The notes under the pieces are model-generated. The model was not told the origin of the DNA, did not search any database, and saw only the letters and a program-made list of their open reading frames with translations. This document shows, one piece after another, positions 12,171-30,899 of a DNA stretch of 36,395 nt. The DNA comes from a virus, in the IMG/VR virus record IMGVR_UViG_3300014501_000043, positions 1 through 36,395 of that record. One strand, written 5' to 3'. Each line of letters starts with the position of its first letter. Position 1 is the stretch's first letter. The position numbers and the translations under genes are program-made.

Positions 12171-13657
12171 CAAATCTTCGGGATGCAGGAGCAGAAAGAT
12201 CACTTTTGGCCACTGTAATCACAAAAGGCAAAGACGCTTTAATTGATGCTGGTGGTATAATTTCTGCCTCAGATTTCAGCCTGCCCTTAAATAGAACCAT
12301 TTTTACCTGCCTAGAATATTTAGGCGAAGATCCAAATTGTCAGGTTTTTGATAGTCAAGCAATTATTACTCAGGCTAAGGCTTTAGGGTTTGGGGACCAG
12401 TTTCAAGATCAAAAAAACGCAGAGTATCTGGACTTACTCCCTGCTGTAAAGTCTGATATACAAAATATCCCATTGTTTGGGTTACAGATTAAAAAATATA
12501 GTGTTGCTAGGGATTTATATCAGAGATATGAGGCGGCACAGAAATATATAAGCAATATCACAGGTTCGGAGCCACTTTCTGAAATTATCAAAAACGCCGA
12601 AGGTAGTATTGTCGATTTTGTCACAGGCGAGGGATCAAGTAAATTAACAGAACTTGGTGAAGGGGTCGATGAATACGTAGAAAGACTCATTGCTGCCCCA
12701 GAGGTCGATCAAATTGGAATTCCCACAGGCTTCCCTATCTGGGACAATTGCATTGGCGGGGGCATCAGGCCCGGCTGCGTTGCAATTACAGCTAGTAGAA
12801 GCAAGGTGGGAAAGTCATGGCATGGGATGAACGTTGGGAGGAACGTAGGAAAACGTGGCTTGCCGGTCTTGTACTTGGACTCTGAGTTGACTGCTGAGTA
12901 TCAAAAAAGCCGCATTTTAGGAATAGACTCTGGTGTCCCAATTAAACTGTTAGAAACAGGTCAGTTCAATAGAAACCAAAATTATGTATGTTCATTACGA
13001 GCGGCTAGCCAACGTGTCAAAAAATATCCCATAACATACCAAAGTATTTCTGGAATGTCTCATATAGAGGCATTAGCAGTAGCTCGCAGGTGGTTAGTGC
13101 GTACCGTCGGTTTTAACGAACTAGGTCATGCAAACCCATGTTTAATTGTGTATGATTATATCAAGATAGCTAATGGGAAAGATTTAGCCAGTTTTAGCCC
13201 GGAGCATATTTTACTGGGTCTACTCATTACATGTATGCACGAGTTCGCTGTGCGATACAATGTACCAATTTTAGCTTACGCCCAGTTAAACAGAGATGGC
13301 ATCACAGAAACAGATACTAGCATTGTGGCTGGTTCAGACAGACTTTTATGGCTCTGTTCATCATTAAGTATTATTCGCAATAAAGATGACACCGATACGC
13401 AAATGAATTGCGGCAAAGAATTCGGCAATAAAAAACTTATCCCAATGGAAACAAGACACGGTCCTGGATTAGAGCTAGAAGCCGATTATATAAATCTTAG
13501 AGCCAGTTTAAGGCCTGGAATTAATGAATTTGAAGCAACTGGGCTAATGACTGAAGGATTAAAATTTAGTGATGTCATAAACAATGGAAATCAGGGACAA
13601 AATGATTCCGGCGGAAGTTCTAGAGAAGATAGAAACCCTCGGGAACGACAATATTGA
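12137..13657 (+). CDS. dnaB-like: DnaB-type replicative helicase
   Basis: Up to 506 aa. Seen: an N-terminal helical domain beginning near GAERSLLATVI, as in DnaB; a RecA-fold motor with Walker A ASRSKVGKS (219-227, lacking the first Gly as DnaB does), LPVLYLDSELT, Walker B CLIVYDYIK and ILAYAQLNR ending in a candidate arginine; and METRHGPG near the DNA-binding loops. Known role: hexameric 5'-3' helicase. The start is uncertain. No ATG fits, the TTG at 12137 overlaps membrane peptide 4 and has no ribosome site, and a non-standard start just downstream is possible. The 3' end overlaps the primase gene by 56 bases. Confidence 0.88.
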   Translation: MWIGDIINKEIANLRDAGAERSLLATVITKGKDALIDAGGIISASDFSLPLNRTIFTCLEYLGEDPNCQVFDSQAIITQAKALGFGDQFQDQKNAEYLDLLPAVKSDIQNIPLFGLQIKKYSVARDLYQRYEAAQKYISNITGSEPLSEIIKNAEGSIVDFVTGEGSSKLTELGEGVDEYVERLIAAPEVDQIGIPTGFPIWDNCIGGGIRPGCVAITASRSKVGKSWHGMNVGRNVGKRGLPVLYLDSELTAEYQKSRILGIDSGVPIKLLETGQFNRNQNYVCSLRAASQRVKKYPITYQSISGMSHIEALAVARRWLVRTVGFNELGHANPCLIVYDYIKIANGKDLASFSPEHILLGLLITCMHEFAVRYNVPILAYAQLNRDGITETDTSIVAGSDRLLWLCSSLSIIRNKDDTDTQMNCGKEFGNKKLIPMETRHGPGLELEADYINLRASLRPGINEFEATGLMTEGLKFSDVINNGNQGQNDSGGSSREDRNPRERQY

Positions 13658-14717
13658 TAAGGTTTTTGAATCCCTAGGAATAGAAGTGTCGGGATACGGG
13701 GAAGAATTGCGGTCTAAATGTCCCATTCACGACAATGCAGATAACCCATCAGGATTTTGTTATAGTACTAGAAAAAGAAAATGGTGGTGTTTTACAAACC
13801 ACTGTGAAAAAGGAAACCCTTATTTAGTTGGTCTTGTCATAAAGCTTCTTTCTAAGAAAGAACATAGGGAAGTAAAGTTAGATGAGGCGGTTTTTTGGTT
13901 AGCGGCGTTGCTGAATTTTTCTATAGAAAATGCGACATCAAATATAAAACCACAAAGCATTGATGATGTGGAAATTTCGCGGTTCGTTAAGGAAACTAAA
14001 TATAGACAACCTAGAGAAGAAAACCCAAAGAAGAGTTCAAGTTATGGGTTCCCTGTGTCGATATTAAAAGGACGACCAGTTAGTGAACGGTTTTTGAAGA
14101 TGGGGTTTTCTAGGGAAATATTAGAAAAATACCATGTGGGTTTCTGTAATAACCCGAACAAAATTTTATACAACAGGTCAGTTGTTCCCATTCTGGAACC
14201 TAGTGGGAAAATTGTCATTGGGGCTACGGGACGAACGGCTTTTGAGGTTTGTAATTATTGTGGGGCTTACCATAATGGTAATGCGGGTTGCCCTGTGGAT
14301 AACCCAAAAGTTAAAGCCGTAAGTAAATGGTATCATGAAAATTTTAACACTAGCGAAGTACTGTTTAATGAGTGGTTTGCTAAAGAACATATAATTGCTA
14401 GTAAAATCGCAGTCTGTGTTGAAGGCCCTAAGGATTGTTTACGTCTCGTTGATAATAAAGTCGATAATGTAGTAGCTTTATTCGGTTTGCGGGTTTTAAA
14501 ACCCCACCTTATAAAACTTATCCAAATGGGAGTTACTAAGTTGGTTTTGTGTTTAGATAATGATGAAAAGGGCATTGAAGCCTCGAAGGAAATCACCGGC
14601 AACTTGAGTAATTATTTTAAAATTGAAAACATTCAACCAATGTTAAAGGATTACAAGGATATTGCGGAAGTTCCCAAAGAGGAAATCGGAAATATTGTTA
14701 AGTATTTCAATGTATAA
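13602..14717 (+). CDS. dnaG-like: DnaG-type primase
   Basis: 371 aa. Seen: an N-terminal CHC2 zinc-binding domain (C40-x2-H43, C63, C68) and a C-terminal TOPRIM core (AVCVEGPKDCLRL with the catalytic Glu, then LCLDNDEKG with the DxD). Shorter than bacterial DnaG and without an obvious helicase-binding tail. The ATG at 13602 is preferred over 13584 because AGGGA lies at 13593-13597. Additional Cys in CNYCGAYHNGNAGCP may form a second zinc site. Overlap with the helicase gene supports a helicase-primase unit. Confidence 0.88.
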   Translation: MIPAEVLEKIETLGNDNIDKVFESLGIEVSGYGEELRSKCPIHDNADNPSGFCYSTRKRKWWCFTNHCEKGNPYLVGLVIKLLSKKEHREVKLDEAVFWLAALLNFSIENATSNIKPQSIDDVEISRFVKETKYRQPREENPKKSSSYGFPVSILKGRPVSERFLKMGFSREILEKYHVGFCNNPNKILYNRSVVPILEPSGKIVIGATGRTAFEVCNYCGAYHNGNAGCPVDNPKVKAVSKWYHENFNTSEVLFNEWFAKEHIIASKIAVCVEGPKDCLRLVDNKVDNVVALFGLRVLKPHLIKLIQMGVTKLVLCLDNDEKGIEASKEITGNLSNYFKIENIQPMLKDYKDIAEVPKEEIGNIVKYFNV

Positions 14718-14857: not shown

Positions 14858-14962
14858 ATGAATGATGAAAATGTTACTATTTTCTTTTTGGGCATGATCT
14901 CAGGTGTAATAATTGAATTTTTAGTTTGTTTGGTTGCTATTAATTTTAGGGATAAAGAATAA
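14858..14962 (+). CDS. One-helix membrane peptide 5
   Basis: 34 aa: polar start (MNDENVT), hydrophobic helix (FFLGMISGVIIEFLVCLVAI), charged end (RDKE). Same plan as the peptides before the helicase gene. AAAGG lies upstream. Function unknown. Confidence 0.45.
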   Translation: MNDENVTIFFLGMISGVIIEFLVCLVAINFRDKE

Positions 14963-15061
14963 GTGATTATACCAAAGGAAGGTTTTTATTTTCTATGGGG
15001 GTTTGTGCTTGGTTGTGCTTCTGGTTTTGTTACGATGATTATTATGCTGTATCATAAATAA
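14963..15061 (+). CDS. One-helix membrane peptide 6
   Basis: 32 aa from a GTG directly abutting the previous stop. One hydrophobic helix (FLWGFVLGCASGFVTMIIML) with the same LG...SG spacing as peptide 5, suggesting a tandem duplicate. The ribosome site is weak (AGGGAT). Confidence 0.4.
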   Translation: MIIPKEGFYFLWGFVLGCASGFVTMIIMLYHK

Positions 15062-15080
15062 CTTAGATTAGGTTTTGGAT

Positions 15081-15175
15081 GTGATTAAAATAGATATAGA
15101 ATTTGTCTTGGGGTTTTTATCTGCGTAATAGATATCCTGAGCATTACTTGGTTAATACTTCATTATGGCAAATAA
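15081..15175 (+). pseudogene. Possible frameshifted one-helix membrane peptide 7
   Basis: A GTG at 15081 encodes IKIDIEFVLGFLSA and stops at 15128. After a -1 shift at the G4T5 run (about 15109-15117) the frame continues hydrophobically (FICVIDILSITWLILHYGK) to TAA at 15173-15175, overlapping the kinase-remnant ATG. Either an indel mutation or a coincidence in AT-rich DNA. Confidence 0.25.
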
Positions 15176-15257
15176 ACTAACTATACTTTTAAGTGGACAA
15201 AATAATTTCAGTATTTTTATTATGCATACATGTATAATCATGTATGAAGAAATTTAA
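15165..15257 (+). pseudogene. Duplicated 5' end of the dNMP kinase-like gene
   Basis: ATG at 15165 encodes MANKLTILLSG and then diverges, stopping at 15257. The true kinase at 16246 begins MNKLTILLSG. The nine shared residues have four synonymous codon differences (AAT/AAC, TTA/TTG, AGT/AGC, GGA/GGG) plus CTA/TTG. Similarity ends at about 15197. The HNH gene lies exactly between the two copies. This is the footprint expected if an endonuclease gene plus flanking DNA inserted near the kinase start codon. See findings. Confidence 0.6.
15225..15246 (+). promoter_or_regulatory. Hairpin holding the HNH start codon
   Basis: Perfect 8-bp arms CATACATG (15225-15232) and CATGTATG (15239-15246) around the 6-nt loop TATAAT. 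The HNH ATG (15244-15246) is the end of the right arm. In RNA this would hide the start codon. In DNA the loop is an exact -10 box that would start transcription at about the ATG. Confidence 0.5.
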
Positions 15258-16242
15258 TCAGCAAGATGTAGAAAAGATTTTAGCGGTACAGGGCAGTAAA
15301 TTATTGTCAGAATACACTGGATATATTGATGATATTAAAATTCAGTGCCAATGCGGGAGAGAATATACGACCAGTTTGCGATCATTCAGGCGTTATAAAC
15401 ATTGCATAAAATGCGGCAGTCTTAAAAAGAAAGTGTCATTTGATTTAGTGCAAGAGCTTTTTAATGAGAGGGGATATAAGTTATTAAGTACCGAAATGAT
15501 TAGTACCACAAAGCAGAAGTTAGACTTTATTTGCGACCAAGGACACCTTGGCAAAATATCATATAATCACATGATAACCGGTAGGGGTTGTTGGGAATGT
15601 GGTATTAAAAAACGAAATAAAACTAGGACAATTCCATATGAAATATTTAAAGAAGATGTAGAAAAAAATTCACACTTTATAATACTAACACCCAAAGAAG
15701 AATATATCAATGGAAAATTTAAAATTAAAATACAGTGTTCGATCTGTAAAATGTGTTATAGTAGACTTGGTTGTGATATTATAAGAAAACCGTGTCACCA
15801 TGGAATACGCAAACACAACCCTCCTCGTGGAGAAAACCATCCACATTGGATTAAAGATAGAGAAGAATGGAAACTTAGAAAAAGATTCAAGCAAACATGT
15901 ATTAATAATGTTTTTGTGGTATTAAATGCTATCGGAAAAATTAAGAACGCTAGATCTCATATATTATTAGGATATGGTCCAGATGAACTACGAAACCATA
16001 TTTTTTCTCACCCCAATTGGCCCTCAGTTAAAGACCAAAAATGGGAAGTAGACCATATTTTCCCAATCAAAGCGTTTTTAGATTATGGTATAACTGATAT
16101 AAAAATAGTTAATGGACTTGATAATTTACAGCCATTATCCGAAATAGATAATATGCATAAAAGTGCCAAGTATAATCTGAAAAATTTTGAACAATGGTTG
16201 ACAATTAAAGGCGTAAATTTTATCAGTCAACTTAACAATTAA
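15244..16242 (+). CDS. HNH homing endonuclease, family B copy 1
   Basis: 332 aa. Seen: two N-terminal repeats beginning KILAVQGSKLLSEY and LFNERGYKLLSTEM with Cys pairs (CQCG, CIKCG; CWECG, CSICKMC), probably zinc-binding DNA-recognition units. Then GENHPHWIKDRE and a C-terminal HNH block: EVDHIFPIKAFLDYG, then NLQPLSEIDNMHKSAKY with the downstream Asn and Lys typical of HNH enzymes. It lies between a remnant and the intact copy of the kinase start. No conventional ribosome site. Its ATG is part of a hairpin. The kinase ATG follows 3 bases after its stop. Confidence 0.87.
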   Translation: MKKFNQQDVEKILAVQGSKLLSEYTGYIDDIKIQCQCGREYTTSLRSFRRYKHCIKCGSLKKKVSFDLVQELFNERGYKLLSTEMISTTKQKLDFICDQGHLGKISYNHMITGRGCWECGIKKRNKTRTIPYEIFKEDVEKNSHFIILTPKEEYINGKFKIKIQCSICKMCYSRLGCDIIRKPCHHGIRKHNPPRGENHPHWIKDREEWKLRKRFKQTCINNVFVVLNAIGKIKNARSHILLGYGPDELRNHIFSHPNWPSVKDQKWEVDHIFPIKAFLDYGITDIKIVNGLDNLQPLSEIDNMHKSAKYNLKNFEQWLTIKGVNFISQLNN

Positions 16243-16245
16243 TAT

Positions 16246-17010
16246 ATGAACAAATTGACTATACTTTTGAGCGGGAGATCTCACAGTGGTCGTATGACTT
16301 GTGCGAACTTCGTTTTATGTGAATATCTTAACCGTAAAATTGGGGCGAAAAGGTTCACGCTGGAAAAAACTGGGAAAGAGTACAGAGTCTACGACTCGTT
16401 TTCTAATGTAATCATACCCACAGCCTACCCAAATGAACTAGCTGAACAAATCTACAAGACTTACTCGGTTAAAATGTATAGCTTTAATAATCCTTTGTGG
16501 GATTTTTGTATAAATTGTCTTGGGTTGGAACATACTGGGTGTTATGGATTTGAAGGGGATGAAAATGCTAATACCCATATATTGTGGGAAGATTTTCCGG
16601 ATACAATTCGTGAGCACTTTGGACGGCTAAAGGGCGACAAAATAAAGCTCGCTGGAGGACTTTTAAACAATAGGGAAGTGATTGAAGTTTTCAAAAATGA
16701 TATCTTTAGAAGAATAGACCGCAATTGTTTATCTCGCTGGCTATTAAACACAATCACCAATGAAAAATTCGACCTTTCAATCGTATTTGATGCGGAATAT
16801 GAATCAGACATTACCTTATTTACAGAAGTGGGAGGAAAGACAATTCACTTGCTTAAAGCTGGTAAAAAAGATCCAATTTCGCATATCCAACAACTGCCAC
16901 TTGGTGAATTTAGCTGCGTCATAGATAATTCTTCAATGACGGCTGAAGAGGTTTTTGCAAAAATTAAGCCAATTATTACAGCATGGTTTTTTGAGAGAGG
17001 ATTAATCTGA
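16246..17010 (+). CDS. Deoxynucleoside monophosphate kinase-like protein
   Basis: 254 aa. Seen: an N-terminal strand and P-loop, LTILLSGRSHSGRMT (residues 4-18), in the position of the GxxxxGKDT loop of T4 gp1-type dNMP kinases. Lys is replaced by Arg16 and the next residue is Met17, so nucleotide binding may be altered. VFDAEYESD in the C-terminal half suits a later acidic motif. Known role of the family: phosphorylating dNMPs for phage DNA synthesis. No ribosome site precedes the ATG because HNH coding DNA lies there. The stop overlaps the next ATG (TGATGG). Confidence 0.55.
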   Translation: MNKLTILLSGRSHSGRMTCANFVLCEYLNRKIGAKRFTLEKTGKEYRVYDSFSNVIIPTAYPNELAEQIYKTYSVKMYSFNNPLWDFCINCLGLEHTGCYGFEGDENANTHILWEDFPDTIREHFGRLKGDKIKLAGGLLNNREVIEVFKNDIFRRIDRNCLSRWLLNTITNEKFDLSIVFDAEYESDITLFTEVGGKTIHLLKAGKKDPISHIQQLPLGEFSCVIDNSSMTAEEVFAKIKPIITAWFFERGLI

Positions 17011-17582
17011 TGGTTGATGAAAGAATAAATGATGATCATAATTGTAAGATGAGTAAGAGAATTGATAAAACTAATGATCCGCGAAAATACGACCATGAAA
17101 AACACTACAAAGCTATAGCTGACGATAATTTATATGGAAAAGATGGTATGGTGGACCAAGTTTCAAAATTGATGAAAGAGATAAAGGAAACGAAAGAATC
17201 CCCACAAGGCTTTCAATTTAAGGATAGCGGCACTAGAGAATCATTTGGACAATCGGTACGTGATTCTAGCGAAGGAAAAGGGGCGTACGAGCTAATTTCT
17301 CCGTTAGCTCTTAAAAGACTTGCGGTAGTTTTAGAACATGGCCGAAAAAAATATGCGGCTAGAAATTGGGAGCATTCAATGCCAATGGGTAGAATTCTTC
17401 AGTCTGCTTTAAGGCATATATGGCAATATATTGAAGGGCAAAAATTATCGAACGAATATGAAGACCATTTAGGACATGCCGCTTTTAATATTTTTGCAGC
17501 GATACATTATGATGAAATGGTGAGGCGTGGATTAATAGATCCATCAATCATAGATTTGCCAGATTATATCCATAAAAAATAA
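17010..17582 (+). CDS. dATP/dGTP diphosphohydrolase-like protein (DUF5664 type)
   Basis: 190 aa. Residues 113-170 show the DUF5664 pattern: KKYAARNWEHSMPMGRILQSALRH, an acidic YEDHLGHAAFN segment and HYDEM, consistent with a helical MazG-like or HD-like nucleotide hydrolase. The N-terminal 90 residues are charged and probably flexible. GAGAGGA precedes the ATG inside the kinase gene. The pairing with a dNMP kinase suggests control of purine dNTP levels. MazZ-type enzymes of Z-genome phages are related by family, but no purZ-type gene is seen here. Confidence 0.6.
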   Translation: MVDERINDDHNCKMSKRIDKTNDPRKYDHEKHYKAIADDNLYGKDGMVDQVSKLMKEIKETKESPQGFQFKDSGTRESFGQSVRDSSEGKGAYELISPLALKRLAVVLEHGRKKYAARNWEHSMPMGRILQSALRHIWQYIEGQKLSNEYEDHLGHAAFNIFAAIHYDEMVRRGLIDPSIIDLPDYIHKK

Positions 17583-18587
17583 ATGGCTAACCATAAGCTT
17601 ACGCAAGAGTACGCAGAAAAAATCTTTGCCGATAAAGGTTGTAAGCTTTTGTCTGAATATAAAGACCGTATAAAAACCAAATTAAAATACCTATGTGTTT
17701 GTGGTAAAATCAAAGAAACTACATTTGTAAACTTTACCAATTTCTATTCTAGAAAAGACATTTTTGAATGTAACCCGCTTAAAAAACAAGAAAGATTTAA
17801 TTATTTAAAAGAACTTTTTGAAAAAGCAAATTGCCAACTTATATCAAGCGATTATAAAAACGGAGAAAGTTTTATAGAATATATATGTCCAAATGGTCAT
17901 AAAACATCTACTAAATTCAGAATCTTTATACAGGGTGGGGGTTGTTTGCCGTGTGCTAGGAAACGCAATGAAGATGCCAGAAAATGGACATTTGAAGAAG
18001 CTAGGGCAATTATAGAAAAAGATGACCTATATAAAATTGTATCGGAAAGACCAAATAGATTTTATCATGGTAGTCGCATTAAAATATTATGCACAAAATG
18101 TGGTATAGTTTGGAAAAAGAATATTAATGATTTTATAAAATGGAAAGGGTGTGATCATACTACCAAAGCGGTTTCTGGTGAAAAACACCCATATTGGATT
18201 AAGGATAGGGTTTTGTTGAAAGAGAGAAGAAAATTTAGGCAATATTGTAGTCAGTTGGTTAATAGGGTGCTAAAGCTCTGCCACCAAAAAAAGACATCAA
18301 GATCAGAGAAAATTTTAGGGTATTCATCTACAGATTTACGAAATCATCTTTATAATAACTGTGGATGGTTAAATATTAAAAATGACTCACCAAGTATAGA
18401 TCATATTTTTCCGATCATGGCATTTATTCGCTATAATATATTTGATGCTAGATTAATTAATTCTCTCGACAATTTGACGGCTCTACCGTTAAAAGATAAT
18501 ATGAGCAAACATGACAAGTATGATAAACTGAGTTTTGAAAAATGGTTAACCTCTAAGGGTGTAAATTTCACCAGTCAGATTAATTAA
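17583..18587 (+). CDS. HNH homing endonuclease, family B copy 2
   Basis: 334 aa. Collinear with the gene at 15244: repeats KIFADKGCKLLSEY and LFEKANCQLISSDY, Cys pairs (CVCG; CLPCA; CTKCG), GEKHPYWIKDR, then the HNH block SIDHIFPIMAFIRY and NLTALPLKDNMSKHDKYD. The C-termini of both copies end in nearly the same GVNF(I/T)SQ motif. The ATG directly abuts the previous stop and the stop overlaps the next ATG, so it fits seamlessly into the junction. No flanking remnant like that at 15165 was found. Confidence 0.87.
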   Translation: MANHKLTQEYAEKIFADKGCKLLSEYKDRIKTKLKYLCVCGKIKETTFVNFTNFYSRKDIFECNPLKKQERFNYLKELFEKANCQLISSDYKNGESFIEYICPNGHKTSTKFRIFIQGGGCLPCARKRNEDARKWTFEEARAIIEKDDLYKIVSERPNRFYHGSRIKILCTKCGIVWKKNINDFIKWKGCDHTTKAVSGEKHPYWIKDRVLLKERRKFRQYCSQLVNRVLKLCHQKKTSRSEKILGYSSTDLRNHLYNNCGWLNIKNDSPSIDHIFPIMAFIRYNIFDARLINSLDNLTALPLKDNMSKHDKYDKLSFEKWLTSKGVNFTSQIN

Positions 18588-19528
18588 TGAAAATCAATCG
18601 TCTCTCTGCTTCCTCGTTTGCCACGTACACCGCCTGTGCTTGGAAGTACTATCTCAATTATGAATTGGGGTTTCAGGAGACTGGTCCAAAATCAGCAGCA
18701 CTTGCTGGAACTATTGCTCATGGAGTCTTTCAAACATTGTCAACTGCATCTATAGTTAATAAATATCCAGAGTCAAAAGTTTGGAACCTCGATTATCTAT
18801 GGAAAATATGCTATGACCACTATTGCAAATTAGATCCGGTTTCTGCTGCCGAAATAGATAATACTAAACTAAAAAAAATCTGCAAAGGAATGCACGACTT
18901 AATCAATGGTCCGTATTCCCCGAAAACAAATAGGACAATTGGCGTAGAAATTCCATTTGACATTGAGATCAAAGAACCAGGTTTTGAACTTCCTCAAAGT
19001 TTGACTGATAATCAAAAGGTTCCAGTAGGAGAGCAGGTCCATAAATACTATGGAATCAGAGGTAGAATCGATAGAATAGATAAAATAGGCGATGGTGCAA
19101 TAGAGATCATTGATTATAAAAGCGGTGGGGATTTATGCTGGTCGTCTAAAGATCGTCATAAAAAAACCGCACACGATCTATTTAGTTCAGATGATCAACA
19201 AGCTAGAATGTACCATCTTGCAGCTAAAACGCTGTATCCTGATGCAAAAAGCGTATTAGTAACGTTTCTATATTTTGTACCGAATAATTTTATTACAGTA
19301 CCATTTTGTGATGCCGATCTAGAAGACACAAAAAAAACACTGCTTAGGCGTTTTAAAACAATTCAGGCCGCAACAAATCCCGCTAGAACTATTAGCTGGC
19401 AATGTCGTACTCTTTGTGGACACGGAAAATCAGGACTGTGTGACCGTGTTTTTCAGGAGTTTGCTGAGTTAGGGGCTGGCTTTGTCGGGCAGAAATATTC
19501 AATTCTTAACGAACGAAAGAAACATTAA
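18587..19528 (+). CDS. RecB/Cas4-type PD-(D/E)XK nuclease with Fe-S cysteines
   Basis: 313 aa. Seen: LSASSFATYTACAWKYYLNY at the N-terminus, GTIAHGVF, GRIDRID, EIIDYKSG (the D...ExK catalytic core) and QQARMY (the Q-x3-Y motif of RecB-family nucleases). C17 plus C273, C277 and C285 form the four-Cys iron-sulfur staple known from AddB and Cas4. Expected role: 5' or 3' DNA end processing in recombination or replication. It is stand-alone; no Cas or helicase partner is adjacent. The ribosome site is weak because HNH coding DNA precedes it. Confidence 0.85.
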   Translation: MKINRLSASSFATYTACAWKYYLNYELGFQETGPKSAALAGTIAHGVFQTLSTASIVNKYPESKVWNLDYLWKICYDHYCKLDPVSAAEIDNTKLKKICKGMHDLINGPYSPKTNRTIGVEIPFDIEIKEPGFELPQSLTDNQKVPVGEQVHKYYGIRGRIDRIDKIGDGAIEIIDYKSGGDLCWSSKDRHKKTAHDLFSSDDQQARMYHLAAKTLYPDAKSVLVTFLYFVPNNFITVPFCDADLEDTKKTLLRRFKTIQAATNPARTISWQCRTLCGHGKSGLCDRVFQEFAELGAGFVGQKYSILNERKKH

Positions 19529-20679: not shown

Positions 20680-20763
20680 ATGAGAAATAACTTGTCCCCG
20701 GATAATTGTCCACATCCTAAATACTATATGATTTTTTATAAAAACGGGGTGAAGATTGAGTAA
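20680..20763 (+). CDS. Short peptide, possible remnant before HNH gene
   Basis: 27 aa (MRNNLSPDNCPHPKYYM...). AGGTGA lies 5 nt before the ATG, a better ribosome site than most here. It ends inside the start of the HNH gene. It may be a small gene truncated by the endonuclease insertion, or a leader that couples translation into the TTG-started HNH gene. I found no match to nearby gene starts. Confidence 0.3.
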   Translation: MRNNLSPDNCPHPKYYMIFYKNGVKIE

Positions 20764-21373
20764 AAAATTTAATTTATTGTGGGGAACCTTAATAATTGCG
20801 AAAGGTCTAGATAATGATCTTATAGCTTTGAATATTAAACAACCATCTACGGACGAAGAACGAGAACAAAACACTAATATTTGTACAAAAACTTGGGGAC
20901 TTATAAAGAAAAGTCAAATGTGTTCAATTTGTAAAGGTAAAGAAACAAGGGGTAGTAAACATTACAGGTGGCGTCTTGATAGAGAGCAAGTCGCATTAGA
21001 GAAAAAGTTTCGCGTTTTAAATAAAAGCATTTTGCGTAATTGTTTAGTTAGACTTAAAATATCTAAAATCAATAAAACGATTGATATGCTTGGATATACT
21101 AGTCAAGATTTATATAATCATTTAATCAATCATCCGAACTGGTTAAATGTTCAAAATGTAAAATGGCACATAGATCACTATTTTCCAATTAAAGCTTTTA
21201 TGGACTATGGTATTTTTGACACAAAGATTGTTAATTGTTTAGAAAATTTACAACCACTAACAGCAAAAGAAAATCTTCTTAAGTATGATACGTATAATCA
21301 AGAAGAATTTGAAGATTGGTTGAATAGTAAAAATATCACATATATAAAACCCAAAGATAGCAATGTCATATAG
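20756..21373 (+). CDS. HNH homing endonuclease, family B, short form
   Basis: 205 aa from a TTG. The C-terminal two thirds match family B: RGSKHYRWRLDRE, GYTSQDLYNHLINHPNW, HIDHYFPIKAFMDYG and NLQPLTAKENLLKYDTY. The long repeat-containing N-terminus of the other two copies is missing, with only one Cys pair (CSIC) left, so target recognition would differ or be lost. It overlaps the polymerase ATG by 11 bases. The start is uncertain. Confidence 0.8.
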   Translation: MSKKFNLLWGTLIIAKGLDNDLIALNIKQPSTDEEREQNTNICTKTWGLIKKSQMCSICKGKETRGSKHYRWRLDREQVALEKKFRVLNKSILRNCLVRLKISKINKTIDMLGYTSQDLYNHLINHPNWLNVQNVKWHIDHYFPIKAFMDYGIFDTKIVNCLENLQPLTAKENLLKYDTYNQEEFEDWLNSKNITYIKPKDSNVI

Positions 21374-23441
21374 CCTTTTCCATGCCCACGATTTCTATTC
21401 CACGATGGATGGGTTCGCTTCGCCCAAGCAAAACGTTCAACGAGCTAAAGAGTTAAAACTTAATGCTATAGGTGTTTCAAATCACGGCTCTATTTCAGGT
21501 GCCGTAGAACACTGGGAGGCCTGCAAAAAGAACAAAATCAAGTGTATTCTTGGTAATGAATTGTATATAACGCATAAACCTGCTTGTATTAAAACTCCAG
21601 AAAACCGCAATAGAACACACATGGTGGTTTTTGCCAAAAACTATGAAGGCTGGCGAGACCTAATTAAGCTAACAAGTCAGACTAATCATCCTGATTACTT
21701 CTATTATAAACCTAGGATTTACCCTTGGGATTATACTGACGAAAATGGAAAGTTTTGGCCAGGACTAGAAAGTTTTACTAAAGGTAATATTATTGGTATA
21801 TCAGGTCATCAAGGTTCAATGATTTCAGATTTTTGTTTTTTTGATCCTTATGGTGGTGCTATTGATATAACAAATTTACGTAAAGCTTATACACAGAAAC
21901 GTGGTATGAAAACTGATTATTACGAACAGTTTTTAAAACCCAATTGGTTGGAATCTACCTGTGATATAGCTTTAAAATTAGAAAAACTATTTGGTAAAGG
22001 TAATTTTTTCATTGAATTACAAAATGAATTAGATCCAAATGATACACTAGCTTTATATATTCACCCCTTAATAGTTAAATGCCTTAGGGAGGTTAGTATA
22101 AAAACTGGCATTCCAGCAATAGCCAGTGCAGATTCCCATTACGCAATAAAAGAACAGAGCGTTTTACAGAGGATTATGCTAGCAACCTCCATGAAGGAGA
22201 CTGAAGCTTCAATAGAAGCTAAGCTTTCTGGGGCAGATGATGAACAAGATGTAATGGTTTTTTTTGGAAGTGATAATTTTTATATCCACTCTCCTGAGGA
22301 AATGTCAGAAAAATTCACTAAAACAGAATTAGAACAAACTAATGTAGTAGCAGCCATGGTTGAAGAATATAGTATCATTCGCAGACCGTATATTCCACGA
22401 TTTAGTGTACCAGAGGTTCCAAAAGAAAAATCACACCACCTAACTGAAATAAAAAACCCATCTGATCAATATTTAATGCATCTATGTGTTGAGGGTGCAA
22501 AAAAACTCCAACCTTGGAAAACCTCAAAAATAAACAAACAAGTATATTGGGATCGTCTTCAAGATGAAACCAAAGGAATATTCAGTGTAGGTTTATCTGA
22601 CTATTTCTTAGTAGTAGATGATATTTGTAAAGCAGCAGACTTTAGACCAAAAGACCATAGTTTTGATTGGCAAAAGAACAAAGGTGAAGTAGATCCAATC
22701 ACGCGAGGTTGTGGGCGTGGAAGCTCAAGTGGCTGTTTAATCAGTTATTTAACTGGAATCACAGGAATTGACCCAGTAAAACATGATTTAGTATTTAGTA
22801 GGTTTTTTAATGTTGGACGCTGTTCTGGTGATCATATGTCATTACCGGACATCGATCTCGATTTTCAAACTGGGGTATCTGGAAGAGATTGGATTATTGA
22901 ATATATCCGGCATAAATATGGTCATGATAAAGTAGGACAAATTATAACCTTTTCTACTATTAAGGGACGTTCTGCAATTAAGGATGTCTTCAGAATTAAA
23001 GCAATCGAAGGTGGTTTTGATTTAGCTAATAAAATTTGCGATTGTATTGCACAGGAAAGTGTTATTGCTGATGAAATACAACAGATGAAAAACGAAGGTG
23101 ACCAAGGGTACAATATATTACGATGGACGCTTGATAATGTGGCACAATTTCAAGAGTACTATAAAAATCCAAAATTAAAAGAACTTATAGATCTTTCTAT
23201 GAAATGCGAAGGCGTTCTTCGTGGTTCAGGCAGACATCCATCTGGAATTGTAGTAGCCAACGAACCCCTAGAGAACATATTTCCTATGGTTTACGATCCT
23301 AAGTCAAAACAAAGAATAGTAGGGTTTGATCTAAAAAGTGCAGAGAAAATGGGTGCTGCTAAATTTGATATCCTTGGGGTAGCAATTCTAAGTAAACTTA
23401 AGATGACCGAGGAATTAGTTCATGAAAACTATAGAAGTTGA
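21363..23441 (+). CDS. dnaE-like (N): DNA polymerase III alpha, N-terminal part (PHP and palm)
   Basis: 692 aa. Seen: PHP domain opening FHAHDFYSTMDG (H7, H9) and AIGVSNHGSISGA (Asn where an Asp is common); a palm with GCGRGSSSGCLISY; PDIDLDF (catalytic D498, D500); and AKFDILG with the third Asp, D669. The gene ends 23 residues after D669, so all three catalytic acids lie here but the fingers and C-terminal domains are in the next gene. Known role: replicative DNA synthesis. It overlaps the second-part gene by 20 bases in another frame. Confidence 0.9.
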   Translation: MSYSLFHAHDFYSTMDGFASPKQNVQRAKELKLNAIGVSNHGSISGAVEHWEACKKNKIKCILGNELYITHKPACIKTPENRNRTHMVVFAKNYEGWRDLIKLTSQTNHPDYFYYKPRIYPWDYTDENGKFWPGLESFTKGNIIGISGHQGSMISDFCFFDPYGGAIDITNLRKAYTQKRGMKTDYYEQFLKPNWLESTCDIALKLEKLFGKGNFFIELQNELDPNDTLALYIHPLIVKCLREVSIKTGIPAIASADSHYAIKEQSVLQRIMLATSMKETEASIEAKLSGADDEQDVMVFFGSDNFYIHSPEEMSEKFTKTELEQTNVVAAMVEEYSIIRRPYIPRFSVPEVPKEKSHHLTEIKNPSDQYLMHLCVEGAKKLQPWKTSKINKQVYWDRLQDETKGIFSVGLSDYFLVVDDICKAADFRPKDHSFDWQKNKGEVDPITRGCGRGSSSGCLISYLTGITGIDPVKHDLVFSRFFNVGRCSGDHMSLPDIDLDFQTGVSGRDWIIEYIRHKYGHDKVGQIITFSTIKGRSAIKDVFRIKAIEGGFDLANKICDCIAQESVIADEIQQMKNEGDQGYNILRWTLDNVAQFQEYYKNPKLKELIDLSMKCEGVLRGSGRHPSGIVVANEPLENIFPMVYDPKSKQRIVGFDLKSAEKMGAAKFDILGVAILSKLKMTEELVHENYRS

Positions 23442-25053
23442 CGATAGATCTGATACTGAAAAATATCAAAAACCAGATTTTGAGAACTACCAATTCCAAA
23501 AGATTTCTACAGAAGATCCATTAGTATGGCAATTATATCAAAGTGGTGATGTTAAGGGTTTATTTCAGGTAGAGAGTGCATTGTGTCAACAATGGTGTAA
23601 AAAAATAAAGCCGAAAAACCTTGATGAACTATCTGCATTAATTAGCTTGGTGCGTCCGGGTGGGCTTGAATCGGGATTTTGTGAAAAATACGCTAATATT
23701 AAAAACGGATTAGAAGAACCGAGTTATATTCATCCAGCATTAGAACCTATTTTAGGTAAAACTTATTCCTGCTTGGTTTTTCAAGAGTCTATTTTAAGAA
23801 TATGTATAGATATTGCGGGTTTTTCAGATATCGAAGCAGATAATGCTAGACGTGCGGTAGGACACAAACTACCAGAAGAGATGGATAAAGTTAAGGTTCT
23901 ATTCATGGAAGGGTCGGCAAAAAAGGGCATTGTCTCTAAAGAGATAGCCGAAGAGATATTCTCATGGATTCAAAAGTCAGTTCGATATCTTTTTTGTGCT
24001 GGACACTCCTATAGTTATAGCTACACTTCGTATTTTGGTGCATATCAAAAACGCTACTTCCCTACTGAATTTTACACTTCTGCTTTGACTTTTTCAGATG
24101 AAAAACTAGACCCCAAGTTAGAGGTTTATGAATTAGTTCAGGATGCCAAACGACATAATGTGAAAATCTTGCCACCTGATATTCGTGAACGCAATATAGA
24201 CTTCAAAATCCTTAGAGATAAATTAATCTTGTTTGGATTATGCCACATTAGAAATATTGGTCGGGCCTCAATCGAGGAATTACAAGACCCCGAAAATGAC
24301 TTCTCCACCTTCACTGGCGTCCTAAAATCTCTCGGAAAAGTAAAACGCTCCGTAATTGAATCAATCATAAAGTCAGGTGGTTGTGATTGTTATGGTTTAT
24401 CTCGCAATCAAATGCTGCGTACAATATATGTAATCTGTGGCAGGAACGAAGTCGATCTCCGGGGAGACGATCTAGCTGTTTCCCGTCCACTAAGTCCCAT
24501 CGAACTTAAGTACTTTCACTTAGCTATAGGTCAATTTACAGTTCAACAAATCCTCCAGAAAATCCTAGATGAAGAAATCTGTATAAAAACCCGTAGACCT
24601 GCGATCGAAGCTAAGTTAAAGTATTTAGAGAACATCCCAAAAGAAACAAACCGCCAGAAAGCTATTTGGGAAAAACTCTATCTCGGCCTTAATCTAACTT
24701 GTTCCGCAGCAGATGATTTCACAAAGAACGAAAACGCAAAAACCTGTAAAGAGATCTACTCTCAACCTGTGGCTAACGAAAAGGAATGGAAAAATAAAGG
24801 AAAAAACTCAGTTACCATGCACGTTGTGGTCGATAGTATAAAAGAAGTAGAAAGTAAGACAAACGGTAATAAGTTTGGGATTTTAAAGGTATCGGATTCA
24901 AGCGGGGTTTTAGATCTAATGGTTTTTTCCAAAAATTGGGAACAGTATAAACCAGAACTCATGGAAGGCATAGTTTGTTGCATCAACGGACGAAAAAACC
25001 TGTTTAAAGATAGAGAATCAGTTATTGTAGAAGATATAGAAATCATAGGTTAA
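23422..25053 (+). CDS. dnaE-like (C): DNA polymerase III alpha, C-terminal part (fingers to OB fold)
   Basis: 543 aa. Begins in the linker before the conserved LYQSGDVKGLFQVES, continues through ISLVRPGG, LVFQESILRI, ARRAVGHK and AGHSYSYSYTSYFGAYQKRYFP (fingers), a helix-hairpin-helix region (LGKVKRSVIESIIKSGG) and a C-terminal OB fold (about 460-543). An ATG with GAGGA at 23409-23413, and an in-frame TAG two codons upstream, favour independent initiation over frameshifting. No sequence seems to be missing between the parts. Probably a two-subunit polymerase. Confidence 0.9.
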   Translation: MKTIEVDDRSDTEKYQKPDFENYQFQKISTEDPLVWQLYQSGDVKGLFQVESALCQQWCKKIKPKNLDELSALISLVRPGGLESGFCEKYANIKNGLEEPSYIHPALEPILGKTYSCLVFQESILRICIDIAGFSDIEADNARRAVGHKLPEEMDKVKVLFMEGSAKKGIVSKEIAEEIFSWIQKSVRYLFCAGHSYSYSYTSYFGAYQKRYFPTEFYTSALTFSDEKLDPKLEVYELVQDAKRHNVKILPPDIRERNIDFKILRDKLILFGLCHIRNIGRASIEELQDPENDFSTFTGVLKSLGKVKRSVIESIIKSGGCDCYGLSRNQMLRTIYVICGRNEVDLRGDDLAVSRPLSPIELKYFHLAIGQFTVQQILQKILDEEICIKTRRPAIEAKLKYLENIPKETNRQKAIWEKLYLGLNLTCSAADDFTKNENAKTCKEIYSQPVANEKEWKNKGKNSVTMHVVVDSIKEVESKTNGNKFGILKVSDSSGVLDLMVFSKNWEQYKPELMEGIVCCINGRKNLFKDRESVIVEDIEIIG

Positions 25054-25095: not shown

Positions 25096-27831
25096 ATGGA
25101 ACGAAAAAAACGCATTCTCTGGTGTTCTGAAGCAAGTTTTTTACACTCTGGGTTTTCTACACTTAGTCTAGACATACTCCATAAGTTATATAAGGCTGGC
25201 AAATATGAGATTGCCGAACTTTCTAGCTACGCTGCTAGCGATGATCCAAGAGCAATTGATGTTCCATGGAAGGTTTATGGTGCCATTCCCCCAAAGGAAA
25301 ACGAGTATGCTTATAAACATTATCATTCTGTGCAAACAGGTCAATTTGGGGAATCGGTTTTTGAGCAAGTGTGTTTAGATTTTAGACCTGATATTGTCCA
25401 CGACAATCGTGATGCATGGATGTGTTTGGCAGCTAACTCCTTAATATATAAAGATTTAGGGCAAATTGCCAAGATACAAGATGTTAAAATTGGCGATAAA
25501 ACATTAACACAAAATAGCGAAATACATTCCGTAACAAACATATTTCAAAGAAAGTTTACTGGCAAAACCTTTAAAATCAAAACATCTGTATTGTCAGACA
25601 CTTTAGAGATGACTGGTAATCATCCTGTGTATATCGTAGAAACTCATAGGCCTAGATGGTTTCCTAAAAATATAAATAATGGCCGATGGATTAACGCCGA
25701 AGATGTTAAAGTTGGACAATACACTCTTTTTCCATTACCAACTTTTGAAACCAAAAAAACCGACTTTAGTAATGAAATGCTCGAAGCTTTGGGTAATTTT
25801 GTTGCAGAAGGTTGTTATTTAAAACATAGTAATATGACCCATTTAAATATTAAAGATGGTATTCAAATTACAGGAAATGGCGAAGAAAAGGATAAATTTG
25901 ATAAGTTTATTAATACTCTAGCTCTACTAGATCCACAGTCTCATGTCCACAATACGAGGATGGACGATATTCATCCTACCTTTGTGATAAGAAGACTTGG
26001 ATCAAAAATAATACCACAATTATTGTGCAACTGGTTTGGAGAATATGCTAAAGGTAAAAGTTTACCAGATTGGATAATGTGCTTGCCAGTAGATCAATTG
26101 TCTTGGTTTATGAAAGGATTGATCAACGGAGATGGATCAAGATGTCATAAAACAAGAAACGGAAGATACTATACAGTGTCAGAGACACTGGCAAGGCAAA
26201 CATGGCTATGTCTACTCAAGTGCGGTATATACTCTTCCTTAAACAAAGGAACCACTAAGATTGGAGAGAGGGTTTTTGAAAGATATTTGTTAAATGTTCC
26301 TAAACTGCAATTTGACAAGTTCGTTAAACTTTTTGATTTTGGTTTATTTTCAAAATTAGAACATAGAAAAATTATAGATAATAATATTATAATGAGGATT
26401 AGATCTATAGAGGAAAAAACAGTAGAAAATATAGATGTATTTAACCTTGAAATAGAAGGGTCGCATACATATGTTTCCAATTTCCTGGTACATAATTGCG
26501 ACCATGAAATTAAAAGCCCATTTCGTGATAAATATAAACTATTTTGGATGCCGACAGTTGATGGGGAGCCACAAAGGCTTCAATGGCTAGATGATTATTC
26601 AAGAGCAGACTTGATTATGACATATAGCCAATATGGCAAGGATATATTAGAAAGAGAAGCACCAAATAAAGTAAAAGTTTTCGACGTTGGTCGTCCTGGT
26701 GTAAATCACGAGTTATTTGTTCCTATGGATAGGACTAAACTCAGGCAAGAGTACGGAATAGATCCACACGCTCAAATTCTAATGACAGTGATGCGTAATC
26801 AAAAACGCAAGTTATTTCCTGACTTAATTGAAATGTTTGCGGGATATCTTAAGCACTGCAAAACTATTGGCAATAAATTTTTAGAACAAAACTCATACCT
26901 TTTTATGCATACTTCCTATCCTGACGTAGGATATGATTTAGGCAAGTATATCATGGAGTTTGGTGTTGGTCATCGCTGTTTGTTTAGTTACTACTGTCGT
27001 AATTGTAGAAAAACCGCTATAGATTTCTTTCAAGGAGAATTTGCGGTTTGTAAATATTGCAATAAATTAGCTGCCTCAATGCCTAATACCTCTATTGGGG
27101 TTTCTAGGGAAGAACTAGCTAGGCTTTATAATCTAGCTGATCTGTATTGCCAGTATAGTATTGCAGAAGGCCTCGCCTGCCCACTAGTGGAAGCCAAGTC
27201 TTGTGGTTTGCCTGCTCTGGCTGTAGATTACACCGCAATGGCAGAACAAGTGAATATAGAAGGGTGTCAACCAATAAAGGTAGGGCGGTTTTTCTATGAA
27301 TCGTGCATGGAAACCGAACAGCGTCGTGCTTTGCCAGATAATACTGATTGCATAAAGAAAGTTTATGATTATTTCATTCTACCTACAGAAACTCGCCAGC
27401 GTTTTTCGCAACTTTGCCGTAACGATGTGGTTCAAAATTATACATTTGAGAGATGTGCTAGAATCTTTGAAAAGGCGATAGATTCACTTGAAGTGCCAGA
27501 ACATAGTGAAACTTGGCTGAATCCCAAAGGTAAATTTGCCCCAATGTCAATGCAATGGAATGAACCTAAATCAAACAGCGATTTTGTTGATGCTGTTATT
27601 GATAACATCCTAGGTAAGCCCGAGTTAAAAAACACATATTGGAAAACAGAACTCGTCAAAGGTTTAAATGTAGGATACGTCACGGAGAGGTCGGGACAGC
27701 ATAAATTCGACAGAAAAGCTTGTATTGGTATGTTTCAACAAATGGCTAAATTACATAATTATTGGGAAAATTCAAGGTTGAGTCTGCTGGAAAAACCTGA
27801 TAACAACAAAATTTCGTGGAAGCTTATTTAA
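25096..27831 (+). CDS. GT4-type glycosyltransferase with intein and zinc ribbon
   Basis: 911-aa precursor, about 553 aa after splicing. N-terminal Rossmann half (RILWCSEASFLHSGFSTLS, then FRPDIVHDNRDAWM). Intein at residues 110-467. The C-terminal half has KVKVFDVGRPGVNHELF, MTVMRNQKRKLFPDL and the E-x7-E donor-site motif AEGLACPLVEAKSCG, as in GT4 retaining enzymes. A four-Cys zinc ribbon (C634, C637, C652, C655) is inserted before that motif, which is unusual. Sugar and acceptor unknown. AGGA lies 5 nt before the ATG in a short gap after the polymerase gene. It starts the glycan block. Confidence 0.85.
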   Translation: MERKKRILWCSEASFLHSGFSTLSLDILHKLYKAGKYEIAELSSYAASDDPRAIDVPWKVYGAIPPKENEYAYKHYHSVQTGQFGESVFEQVCLDFRPDIVHDNRDAWMCLAANSLIYKDLGQIAKIQDVKIGDKTLTQNSEIHSVTNIFQRKFTGKTFKIKTSVLSDTLEMTGNHPVYIVETHRPRWFPKNINNGRWINAEDVKVGQYTLFPLPTFETKKTDFSNEMLEALGNFVAEGCYLKHSNMTHLNIKDGIQITGNGEEKDKFDKFINTLALLDPQSHVHNTRMDDIHPTFVIRRLGSKIIPQLLCNWFGEYAKGKSLPDWIMCLPVDQLSWFMKGLINGDGSRCHKTRNGRYYTVSETLARQTWLCLLKCGIYSSLNKGTTKIGERVFERYLLNVPKLQFDKFVKLFDFGLFSKLEHRKIIDNNIIMRIRSIEEKTVENIDVFNLEIEGSHTYVSNFLVHNCDHEIKSPFRDKYKLFWMPTVDGEPQRLQWLDDYSRADLIMTYSQYGKDILEREAPNKVKVFDVGRPGVNHELFVPMDRTKLRQEYGIDPHAQILMTVMRNQKRKLFPDLIEMFAGYLKHCKTIGNKFLEQNSYLFMHTSYPDVGYDLGKYIMEFGVGHRCLFSYYCRNCRKTAIDFFQGEFAVCKYCNKLAASMPNTSIGVSREELARLYNLADLYCQYSIAEGLACPLVEAKSCGLPALAVDYTAMAEQVNIEGCQPIKVGRFFYESCMETEQRRALPDNTDCIKKVYDYFILPTETRQRFSQLCRNDVVQNYTFERCARIFEKAIDSLEVPEHSETWLNPKGKFAPMSMQWNEPKSNSDFVDAVIDNILGKPELKNTYWKTELVKGLNVGYVTERSGQHKFDRKACIGMFQQMAKLHNYWENSRLSLLEKPDNNKISWKLI
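25423..26496 (+). mobile_element. LAGLIDADG intein in the first glycosyltransferase
   Basis: 358 aa, in frame, residues 110-467 of the host protein. Seen: C1 start (CLAANSLIY), block B GNHPVYIV, two LAGLIDADG-type helices (LGNFVAEG near 232-239; FMKGLINGDG 338-347) and a block F/G ending (VFNLEIEGSHTYVSNFLVHN) followed by Cys468 of the host. All splice residues (Cys1, terminal His-Asn, +1 Cys) are present, so splicing should work. The ligated junction would read DAWM-CDHEIK. The second helix keeps its acidic residue, so nuclease activity is possible. Confidence 0.9.
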
Positions 27832-28517: not shown

Positions 28518-30899
28518 ATGAAGATAGCATATCTTGGCCCCGTTTTTGATTCCACTGGATATTCAAAAGCTATAATTGAGAGTGTTTTAGCCCTAGATGA
28601 AATTGGGGTTGACGTAGCAGTTCGTTCAGTTAAGATGACCAATACATCTGGAGAAGTACCGCAAAGAATTAAGGAATTATCCAAGAATAATCTACAAGGG
28701 GTGGATTGTGTCATCCAACATAATTTACCTAGCGAGTTTGTCTATAGTTCTAAATGCCAACAAATCGGTCGTTGGGACTATGAGACATCAAACTTCAAAA
28801 ATGCAAATTGGTGCGATAATCTTAGGTTAATGGATAAATTGATAGTTTCGGCTACCTTCGCAAAAACCGCAGTAAAAAACACCGATCCATCCCTAGATGA
28901 AAAAACCTACGTCTGTCCTCACGCCATAGACACTTCCAAATTCGACAAACAATATGATTTAATGGATTTTGGTTTCAAAAATAAACCGCTGAAATTCTAC
29001 ACCGTCGCTGAATTTGGTATGCGGAAAAACCTTCCTGCAACTATAGCTGCTTACTATTCCTCATTTTGTAGCGATGATTCAGTCTTGTTAGTGATCAAAT
29101 CACATATCTCAGGTGGTGATGTCACCAAAATGATTGAGGATATTTGTAATGACCTCAAGCGTACGATGCATAAGTTTAACGATCCAAACCTATATCCACC
29201 TATAGCGGTTATAGGAAGTTATTTAAGCGATGATAAGATTAATTCGTTACATAAAAGTTGCGATGTTTTTGTAAGTTCATCTCGTGGAGAAGCATTCTGT
29301 ACATTACCATCTGCTGAAATTAAGACTATTGGTGGCACAAAGCCAATATCCTCATTTATAGTTGGAGACAAAGTATATTCTCATACTGGCCAACTGAGGG
29401 ATGTTACGGGTGTGATTTCAAGACAATATGATGGTGAAATGATCAATATAGATTGTGTGTCTAGAAATAAAGACATCTTGTCGTTAACACCAAACCATAA
29501 AGTTAGAGCAGTCAGGACTTCTTCTTTATGTAATTGTTCTAAAAAACGAATGTTCGATGAATTGATTTATAATCCCATTATAGATCAAATAGAACACTCA
29601 AATAAAAACATTCAATATAATTCAAAATATAATAAAATTCAACTAGAATGGATAGAAGCCTCCGATTTAAAAGTTGGCGATCATATCTTTTACCCTAAAT
29701 TGAAATCTTTGAATCCACCATTATTCTTAAATGCCAGTGAATTTATTGATAATAATAAATATACTTTTAAAGACGGCAAAATATTTGGAAAAACTAGTAA
29801 TCAATTTGGTGAAAAATATGAAAGTAAAAGATTAATATCCAGTTGGGATAGAATACCAATAAATAAAGATATTATGAAACTATTCGGATATTTTGTTGCC
29901 GAAGGATGCACTACCGATCAAGGTGTGATATACTTTTGTTTTCATGCCAAAGAAATAGAATATCATAATGAAGTCGCATCCCTAATGGGTTTATTAGGGA
30001 TAAAACAAGCTAAACCAAATGTAAGAGGTAATTCTTATTCCTGTAAATTTTCCAACATAGTTTTAGCAAATATGCTAAGAAAATTATTTGGTGGATATTC
30101 TAGAAATAGAGTTTTACCAGAATGGTTCTTAAGTCTTGATGATGAATTAAAATTATCTTTTATCAATGGTTTATTTAATGGAGATGCCTCATATTTAGCC
30201 AAAACATCGTACGATATATCATCAAAAAAACTATCATCTCAAATATTTGATATACTATCATCATTAGGATTTTGTTGTTCTCAAAGCAAGAGAATGATAA
30301 ATGATAGATTTTATTATAAAATAAAAATATCGAACATTTTTGACCACAATAGACTGATGGATCTACTTAATAGACCAAAAGAAGAATACTTAATACAAGG
30401 CAGAAATCAAAGAGCTAACCTAACGCAAAAGGATTTTCAACTAGTGAAAATTCGCTCTGTCACAAAATCACAGTATTCTGGTCAAGTATATAATTTGTCT
30501 GTGAGTGATGAAAATAGCTATTTGTGTAACGATCTGGCTATCCATAACTGTATTCCATATATTGAAGCTTTAGGTTTTGGTAATCCTTGCATTGTACCAA
30601 AACACTCCGCTTTTTTAGATTATCATTATGACACAGATTTGATGGTCGATTCAACTGACTCTATAGTTTTTGGAGTCCAAGGTTGTCCACCTGGATTATA
30701 TACCGCAAATGAGATTTGGGGAAACCCTTCATTAGTTGATCTAGCATATAAAATGAGAGTGGTCTATGAAGACTCAGAAATATATTTTCAGAAAGAAATG
30801 GTTGAGGGAAGAAAAGCATATGTACAGCGGGATTTTAGCCGCAAAGTAGTAGGGCAGAAATTGATGGAGATCATCTCTGGGAGCCAAGATGCAAAATAA
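28518..30899 (+). CDS. GT4-type glycosyltransferase with intein in its donor-site motif
   Basis: 793-aa precursor, about 376 aa after splicing. N-terminal half: IAYLGPVFDSTGYSKAIIES, with the GT4 hinge segment VCPHAIDTSKF and FYTVAEFGMRKNLPATIAAY. Host sequence stops at SSSRGEAF and resumes at CIPYIEALGFGNPCIVP, so the intein splits the E-x7-E nucleotide-sugar motif (GEAF-CIPYIE). The enzyme must therefore be inactive until splicing. Sugar and acceptor unknown. It ends overlapping the next GT gene by 11 bases. Confidence 0.87.
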   Translation: MKIAYLGPVFDSTGYSKAIIESVLALDEIGVDVAVRSVKMTNTSGEVPQRIKELSKNNLQGVDCVIQHNLPSEFVYSSKCQQIGRWDYETSNFKNANWCDNLRLMDKLIVSATFAKTAVKNTDPSLDEKTYVCPHAIDTSKFDKQYDLMDFGFKNKPLKFYTVAEFGMRKNLPATIAAYYSSFCSDDSVLLVIKSHISGGDVTKMIEDICNDLKRTMHKFNDPNLYPPIAVIGSYLSDDKINSLHKSCDVFVSSSRGEAFCTLPSAEIKTIGGTKPISSFIVGDKVYSHTGQLRDVTGVISRQYDGEMINIDCVSRNKDILSLTPNHKVRAVRTSSLCNCSKKRMFDELIYNPIIDQIEHSNKNIQYNSKYNKIQLEWIEASDLKVGDHIFYPKLKSLNPPLFLNASEFIDNNKYTFKDGKIFGKTSNQFGEKYESKRLISSWDRIPINKDIMKLFGYFVAEGCTTDQGVIYFCFHAKEIEYHNEVASLMGLLGIKQAKPNVRGNSYSCKFSNIVLANMLRKLFGGYSRNRVLPEWFLSLDDELKLSFINGLFNGDASYLAKTSYDISSKKLSSQIFDILSSLGFCCSQSKRMINDRFYYKIKISNIFDHNRLMDLLNRPKEEYLIQGRNQRANLTQKDFQLVKIRSVTKSQYSGQVYNLSVSDENSYLCNDLAIHNCIPYIEALGFGNPCIVPKHSAFLDYHYDTDLMVDSTDSIVFGVQGCPPGLYTANEIWGNPSLVDLAYKMRVVYEDSEIYFQKEMVEGRKAYVQRDFSRKVVGQKLMEIISGSQDAK
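29298..30548 (+). mobile_element. LAGLIDADG intein in the second glycosyltransferase
   Basis: 417 aa, residues 261-677 of the host protein. Seen: Cys1 (CTLPSAEIKTI), block B SLTPNHKVRAV, two LAGLIDADG-type helices (LFGYFVAEG 455-463; INGLFNGDAS with D556), a block F-like VYNLSVSDENSYLCND and LAIHN-C at the end. All splice residues are present. It differs in length, site and sequence from the first intein, so the two entered separately. Confidence 0.9.

Follow-up and report, generated by a model that had tools for sequence, protein, structure and literature searches.

A free-standing HNH endonuclease gene between two synonymously diverged copies of the start of a phage dNMP kinase-family gene

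Organisation of the locus

We analysed a 36,395-base record of an uncultured virus (the window), focusing on the interval between its primase and exonuclease genes. This interval holds small open reading frames (ORFs), a 30-codon ORF, an HNH endonuclease gene (HNH_B1), a gene of the dNMP kinase family, a dATP/dGTP diphosphohydrolase gene and a second HNH gene of the same family as HNH_B1. The features considered below are as follows.

13584-14717: primase gene, upstream border of the region
14858-14962, plus strand: sm1, small single-helix-like ORF
14963-15061, plus strand: sm2, small single-helix-like ORF with a GTG start
15081-15175, plus strand: sm3, small ORF with a GTG start at 15081 and an apparent frameshift at a GGGGTTTTT run
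15165-15257, plus strand: upstream ORF, MANKLTILLSGQNNFSIFIMHTCIIMYEEI and stop, reading MANKLTILLSG and then an unrelated tail; homologous part 15165-15197
15225-15246, plus strand: 8-bp perfect inverted repeat, CATACATG-TATAAT-CATGTATG, spanning the HNH_B1 start codon
15244-16242, plus strand: HNH_B1, free-standing HNH endonuclease gene whose start overlaps the stop of the upstream ORF by 14 bases
16246-17010, plus strand: dNMP kinase-family gene with the second copy of the first codons; homologous part 16249-16275
18587-19528: exonuclease gene, downstream border of the region

On re-inspection this layout agrees with an earlier note on the same DNA, made from the letters alone, which had placed an ATG at 15165 opening MANKLTILLSG, then the HNH gene, then a kinase beginning MNKLTILLSG. 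The kinase ATG at 16246 lies three bases (TAT) past the HNH_B1 stop, and a Shine-Dalgarno-like sequence was found before none of the three starts checked (upstream ORF, HNH_B1 and kinase), in keeping with the description of the kinase start in that note. The stop of sm3 falls in another frame (TAA, 15173-15175), giving an 11-base overlap with the kinase-like start of the upstream ORF. Judged by eye sm3 resembles sm1 and sm2, and the three (14858-15175) appear as membrane-like ORFs in tandem.

HNH_B1 combines a CapR-type zinc-finger N-terminus (CapR domain, E 6.8e-7) with an HNH C-terminus and matches the phrog_559 HNH endonuclease (E 4.3e-18). An alignment of the three family-B proteins of the window (B1-B3) contains a conserved DHxFPI...N...K region, and both the HNH residues and the zinc fingers are retained in HNH_B1. 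As an ORF of its own with these domains it has the make-up of a free-standing HNH homing endonuclease gene, its cleavage activity being a prediction. The inverted repeat at 15225-15246 could be an operator or a hairpin that hides the HNH_B1 start; its folding energy is not above that of shuffled sequences (z -0.70) despite the perfect 8-bp arms. A hairpin is reported for mobE in the title of a work cited in the excerpted text of PMC2988022.

Two copies of the kinase start

The peptide NKLTILLSG is encoded at 15171-15197 and again at 16249-16275, directly after each start region. When all six frames of the window were searched for repeats, only four 9-residue strings recurred identically: these nine common residues, which had already been remarked on in the earlier note, and three strings shared by two paralogous HNH genes. 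Shuffled windows yield a mean of 0.025 identical 9-residue pairs. When the region upstream of HNH_B1 was shuffled 1000 times, matches to the kinase start reached at most 5 residues, compared with the 9 observed. The DNA repeat on its own (21/26 bases) is not above chance, several chance families of like size occurring in the window. What marks the pair as a duplicate is its reading frame, its start codons and its position.

Across the nine codons in common, 6 of 27 bases differ between the copies and all six differences are synonymous (78% identity in DNA, 100% in protein), so that the earlier statement that most of the differing codons were synonymous was correct but understated. Neutral drift simulated to six differences preserved the peptide in 2.5e-5 to 3.5e-4 of runs, a probability biased by the route of discovery, as the pair was spotted through its matching residues and the stretch spans only nine codons. 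Divergence that is purely synonymous, and rare under neutral drift, argues that the copies separated while both were selected as protein. On this sequence comparison, separation under protein-level selection is the most likely history of the pair, rather than decay of a duplicate in place, which fits the earlier view that this is not a fresh tandem repeat. The codon composition of the 5′ part of the kinase gene was not significantly foreign (change-point P 0.08).

The uninterrupted locus in relatives

Relatives were retrieved with a kinase-based motif pattern (YSFxxPLxxFCxxxLGL), which returned the contigs L002 and L010, and were extended by helicase and kinase alignments to about 17 distinct phages in all, sharing with the window the gene order helicase, primase, kinase, exonuclease and PolIII. 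The nearest is L002, whose kinase is about 45-46% identical to that of the window; L010, L012, L029 and others overlap it, with identical proteins in the region. In L002 the primase is followed after one base by an uninterrupted kinase starting ATGGCAAATAAG... (MANKL), MANKLKIILSGRKQAGKSS, with no HNH gene. Most kinase-bearing relatives likewise have the kinase directly after the primase with no HNH gene between them, and every one of them has a single kinase at the locus. The syntenic primase-kinase site is thus represented by an occupied allele in the window and empty alleles in L002 and other relatives. Neither sm1 nor sm2 is found in the L002 locus.

No close relative of the window was present in the searched collections (best kinase identity 46%), so it is not possible to read off directly which phage was the donor, where exactly the junctions lie or which way the event ran. 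No relatives of the window kinase were found among isolate phages, a scan of a genome collection gave no match and, when viral sequences were scanned for this kinase start, nothing came back beyond the known relative and its overlapping contigs. The check proposed in the earlier note, alignment with HNH-less relatives, bore out its reading with L002, though at 45% identity this is not a close sister; its kinase is uninterrupted and its MANKL matches the remnant. The same note had held that its reading would fail if HNH-less relatives carried two such starts or if the upstream copy belonged to a separate gene; no relative that we found has two, and the upstream ORF is not a separate gene.

Three weak points favour the upstream copy as the resident start. 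Ala2 is common to the L002 kinase (ATGGCAAATAAG) and the upstream copy (ATGGCAAATAAA) and is absent from the downstream copy, a feature shared with one relative that could be coincidence. Counted against L002, itself a distant relative, the 27 shared bases show 9 differences for the upstream copy and 12 for the downstream one. The 11-base overlap of the upstream ATG with the end of the small gene is of a kind present elsewhere in the operon, as for a native start. From the Ala2 and MANKL match to L002, the resident kinase probably once began at the upstream copy, now stranded, and the HNH gene probably came in together with a new 5′ end for the kinase. To this extent the earlier reading stands, the empty relatives supporting an insertion at the 5′ end of the kinase and the MANKL match a stranded start upstream; what that note had concluded about the state of the kinase is taken up below.

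The downstream kinase

A profile of the kinase family finds the T4 dNMP kinase (1dek) with E 1.1e-12, and a predicted model of the window protein (pLDDT 88.7) has 1dek as its best PDB match (E 4.7e-5). By sequence and by the fold of this model the protein is a member of the T4 gp1-type dNMP kinase family. Its Walker-A motif GxxxxGK[ST] has become GRSHSGRM with loss of the lysine (K16R), and other family motifs have changed as well: FGT to FKN, W to L, DxRFPNE to DAEYESD and SE to QQ. Besides K16R, 11 invariant residues are altered (window numbering): A81N, K85W, K106E, G150K, T151N, W162L, R184E, F185Y, E188D, R204K and E216Q. The kinase thus keeps 14/26 of the columns that are invariant in 16 relatives; the neighbouring genes of the window keep 51/53 (helicase), 19/20 (primase), 25/26 (exonuclease) and 27/32 (RecA).

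Identity of the kinase to L002 (46%) is similar to that of the neighbour genes (41-54%), and its 254 codons contain no stop or frameshift. Neighbour-like identity in an unbroken frame suggests a gene that is still maintained and not one in decay, and its product is likely a pseudoenzyme, a phage pseudokinase. The earlier note had called the kinase intact, which holds for the reading frame and not for the enzyme. Nor do the data support its further suggestion that the homing gene had entered without killing its target, since the Walker-A lysine and the 11 other invariant residues are gone.

In the window the dATP/dGTP diphosphohydrolase gene (17010-17582) directly follows this apparently dead kinase. 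In one relative (L015, 5902-6525) the slot between primase and exonuclease is filled by a relative of this diphosphohydrolase gene instead of a kinase, an arrangement that suggests a swap in nucleotide handling.

Proposed insertion and alternative explanations

We favour the reading, at a probability of about 0.6, that an HNH homing gene invaded the start of a phage kinase gene and brought recoded first codons with it. Observed directly are two copies that differ only by synonymous changes, a syntenic locus lacking the HNH gene, and an upstream copy that shares MANKL with that locus. On this reading HNH_B1 would have cut an uninterrupted kinase gene in the conserved P-loop codons, near codon 11, and repair would have copied in the HNH gene together with the synonymously diverged first ~10 kinase codons from a donor that presumably already carried both the HNH gene and the replacement 5′ end. 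The kinase frame would thereby have been rebuilt, restarting three bases after the HNH stop, with the resident start left stranded upstream of the HNH gene. The altered codons may protect the rebuilt gene from HNH_B1, and the stranded start may have become coupled to HNH_B1 translation. The downstream protein would later have lost kinase catalysis, keeping its frame and fold. A more specific proposal, which we regard as tentative and rather doubtful, is that the mobile unit consists of the HNH gene plus a recoded, cleavage-resistant 5′ end of the target and enters at the P-loop codons, with the old start serving as a translational feeder for the endonuclease. If true, such a unit would be a 5′-end counterpart of the yeast WHO elements and the fungal mobile ORFs, independently evolved in phages.

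The same layout could have arisen with the opposite polarity, the upstream copy being the left flank of the HNH gene, carried in from a donor whose kinase that gene interrupts after codon 11, and the downstream copy being native. L002 lacks the small ORFs that precede the upstream copy, which could be donor DNA, and the apparent frameshift of the small gene together with the absence of small genes from L002 keeps this explanation in play; it is opposed by the Ala2 that the upstream copy has in common with the uninterrupted relative, and by the fewer base differences of that copy to L002, and we consider it unlikely. A history of tandem paralogues also seems improbable to us. In this scheme an active kinase beginning MANKL... 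preceded a neofunctionalised one beginning MNKL..., and an HNH insertion with a deletion left 11 codons of the former. Long separation of the copies at the coding level would then need no donor, and a catalytically dead survivor would be expected for a second copy with a new function, but each kinase-bearing relative has exactly one kinase, and the scheme requires a duplication as well as a deletion that stopped just before the HNH start.

Two further explanations carry very little weight. A short leader peptide might resemble the kinase start by accident, given that 21/26 DNA identity is within the range of chance repeats; the excess of the 9-residue match over anything seen in the shuffles, and its beginning at the ATG where the relative's kinase starts, leave that explanation close to refuted. 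The HNH gene might instead sit inside a self-splicing intron with MANKLTILLSG as a short first exon, an arrangement hinted at when the earlier note spoke of a first exon-like copy, and splicing would restore a single kinase frame. The region matches no Rfam family, either at gathering thresholds or with E relaxed to 1, and an intron leaves the duplicate downstream start unexplained, making it a highly improbable account.

Comparison with known systems

Mobile ORFs of fungal mitochondria have been described in Allomyces macrogynus (atp6) and in Glomus sp. (atp6, atp9, cox2 and nad3), where they carry a diverged 3′ end of the host gene that replaces the resident end, the old end remaining downstream (PMC3630166). 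The Glomus atp6 copies share 63.5% identity in DNA against 91% in protein (PMC3630166). The window locus resembles these in that DNA has diverged more than protein and the old end is retained; a diverged second end of the target gene lies beyond the endonuclease gene with the old end still in place (15171-15197 and 16249-16275). The fungal elements differ in affecting the 3′ end (the carboxy-terminus) of mitochondrial genes with LAGLIDADG or GIY-YIG enzymes, whereas here an HNH gene in a phage is associated with about 10 codons of a 5′ end. Yeast WHO elements similarly join an endonuclease gene to a resistant replacement 3′ end of FBA1, displaced fragments of which remain; the enzyme is intein-derived with a zinc finger and its allele-specific cleavage was shown experimentally (PMC7282813). 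The phage locus shares the pairing of endonuclease gene and replacement target end but involves the 5′ end, and its cleavage and resistance are predictions.

The nearest idea from phages is T4 gene 39/60, split by a homing endonuclease, with a 50-nt bypassed insert (PMC5009743); the excerpted text of PMC2988022 names the enzyme mobA. Both cases pair a phage homing gene with a changed target segment presumed to shield the gene from the nuclease, but in T4 the gene is in two parts, the protective segment is the 50-nt bypassed insert and there is no duplicated recoded end. The mob and seg homing genes of T4 lie between core genes, are often promoterless and have starts that overlap the upstream ORF, as described in the same excerpt; the overlaps of segC, segF, mobA and mobC are 11-24 bases, and reinitiation by ribosome scanning has been proposed (PMC2988022). 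The 14-base overlap at the HNH_B1 start is similar to these and suggests coupled translation, and by analogy the upstream ORF probably now feeds ribosomes into the HNH_B1 start. That excerpt reports no stranded target start upstream of the T4 genes (PMC2988022).

A search of open-licence literature turned up no phage in which a recoded gene end is duplicated. The arrangement is known in fungi for 3′ ends and, as far as that literature shows, the phage 5′-end case would be new, its footprint being short. How free-standing homing genes enter essential genes without an intron or intein is an open question. One answer, known from fungal 3′ ends, is for the homing gene to bring a substitute piece of its target. 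A phage 5′-end case would suggest a general strategy, and it provides a defined empty site. The later loss of catalytic residues by the kinase suggests that such entry may do harm in the long run.

Other homing genes

No stranded target start was found at the six other homing genes of the window (two family-B HNH genes and four further genes) or at three homing genes in a relative (L031). HNH_B1 being the sole positive among the window's seven and the three of L031, a general rule that HNH genes carry target 5′ ends was rejected. About 30 more HNH_B relatives, scanned more coarsely, gave no convincing stranded start. Three candidates flagged there were discarded by eye: L048 as a gapped, low-identity likeness judged to be chance, L060 because the likeness appears to be a motif belonging to a second homing gene, and L077 as an artefact of two overlapping regions. 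Several homing genes in the window and L031 end a few bases from the start codon of a core gene.

HNH_B3 (20756-21373) resembles a truncated HNH_B1 or B2 with no zinc-finger N-terminus; it has a TTG start and overlaps the PolIII start by 11 bases. PolIII alpha itself occupies two overlapping ORFs in the window (21363-25053), and in L026 (17066-21503) an HNH gene lies between the two PolIII alpha parts; the split could be the trace of an old homing event. Further downstream, the glycosyltransferase ORFs at 25096-27831 and 28518-30899 contain apparent inteins, recognised by eye from the ends ...LVHN/C and ...AIHN/C and from LAGLIDADG-like centres.
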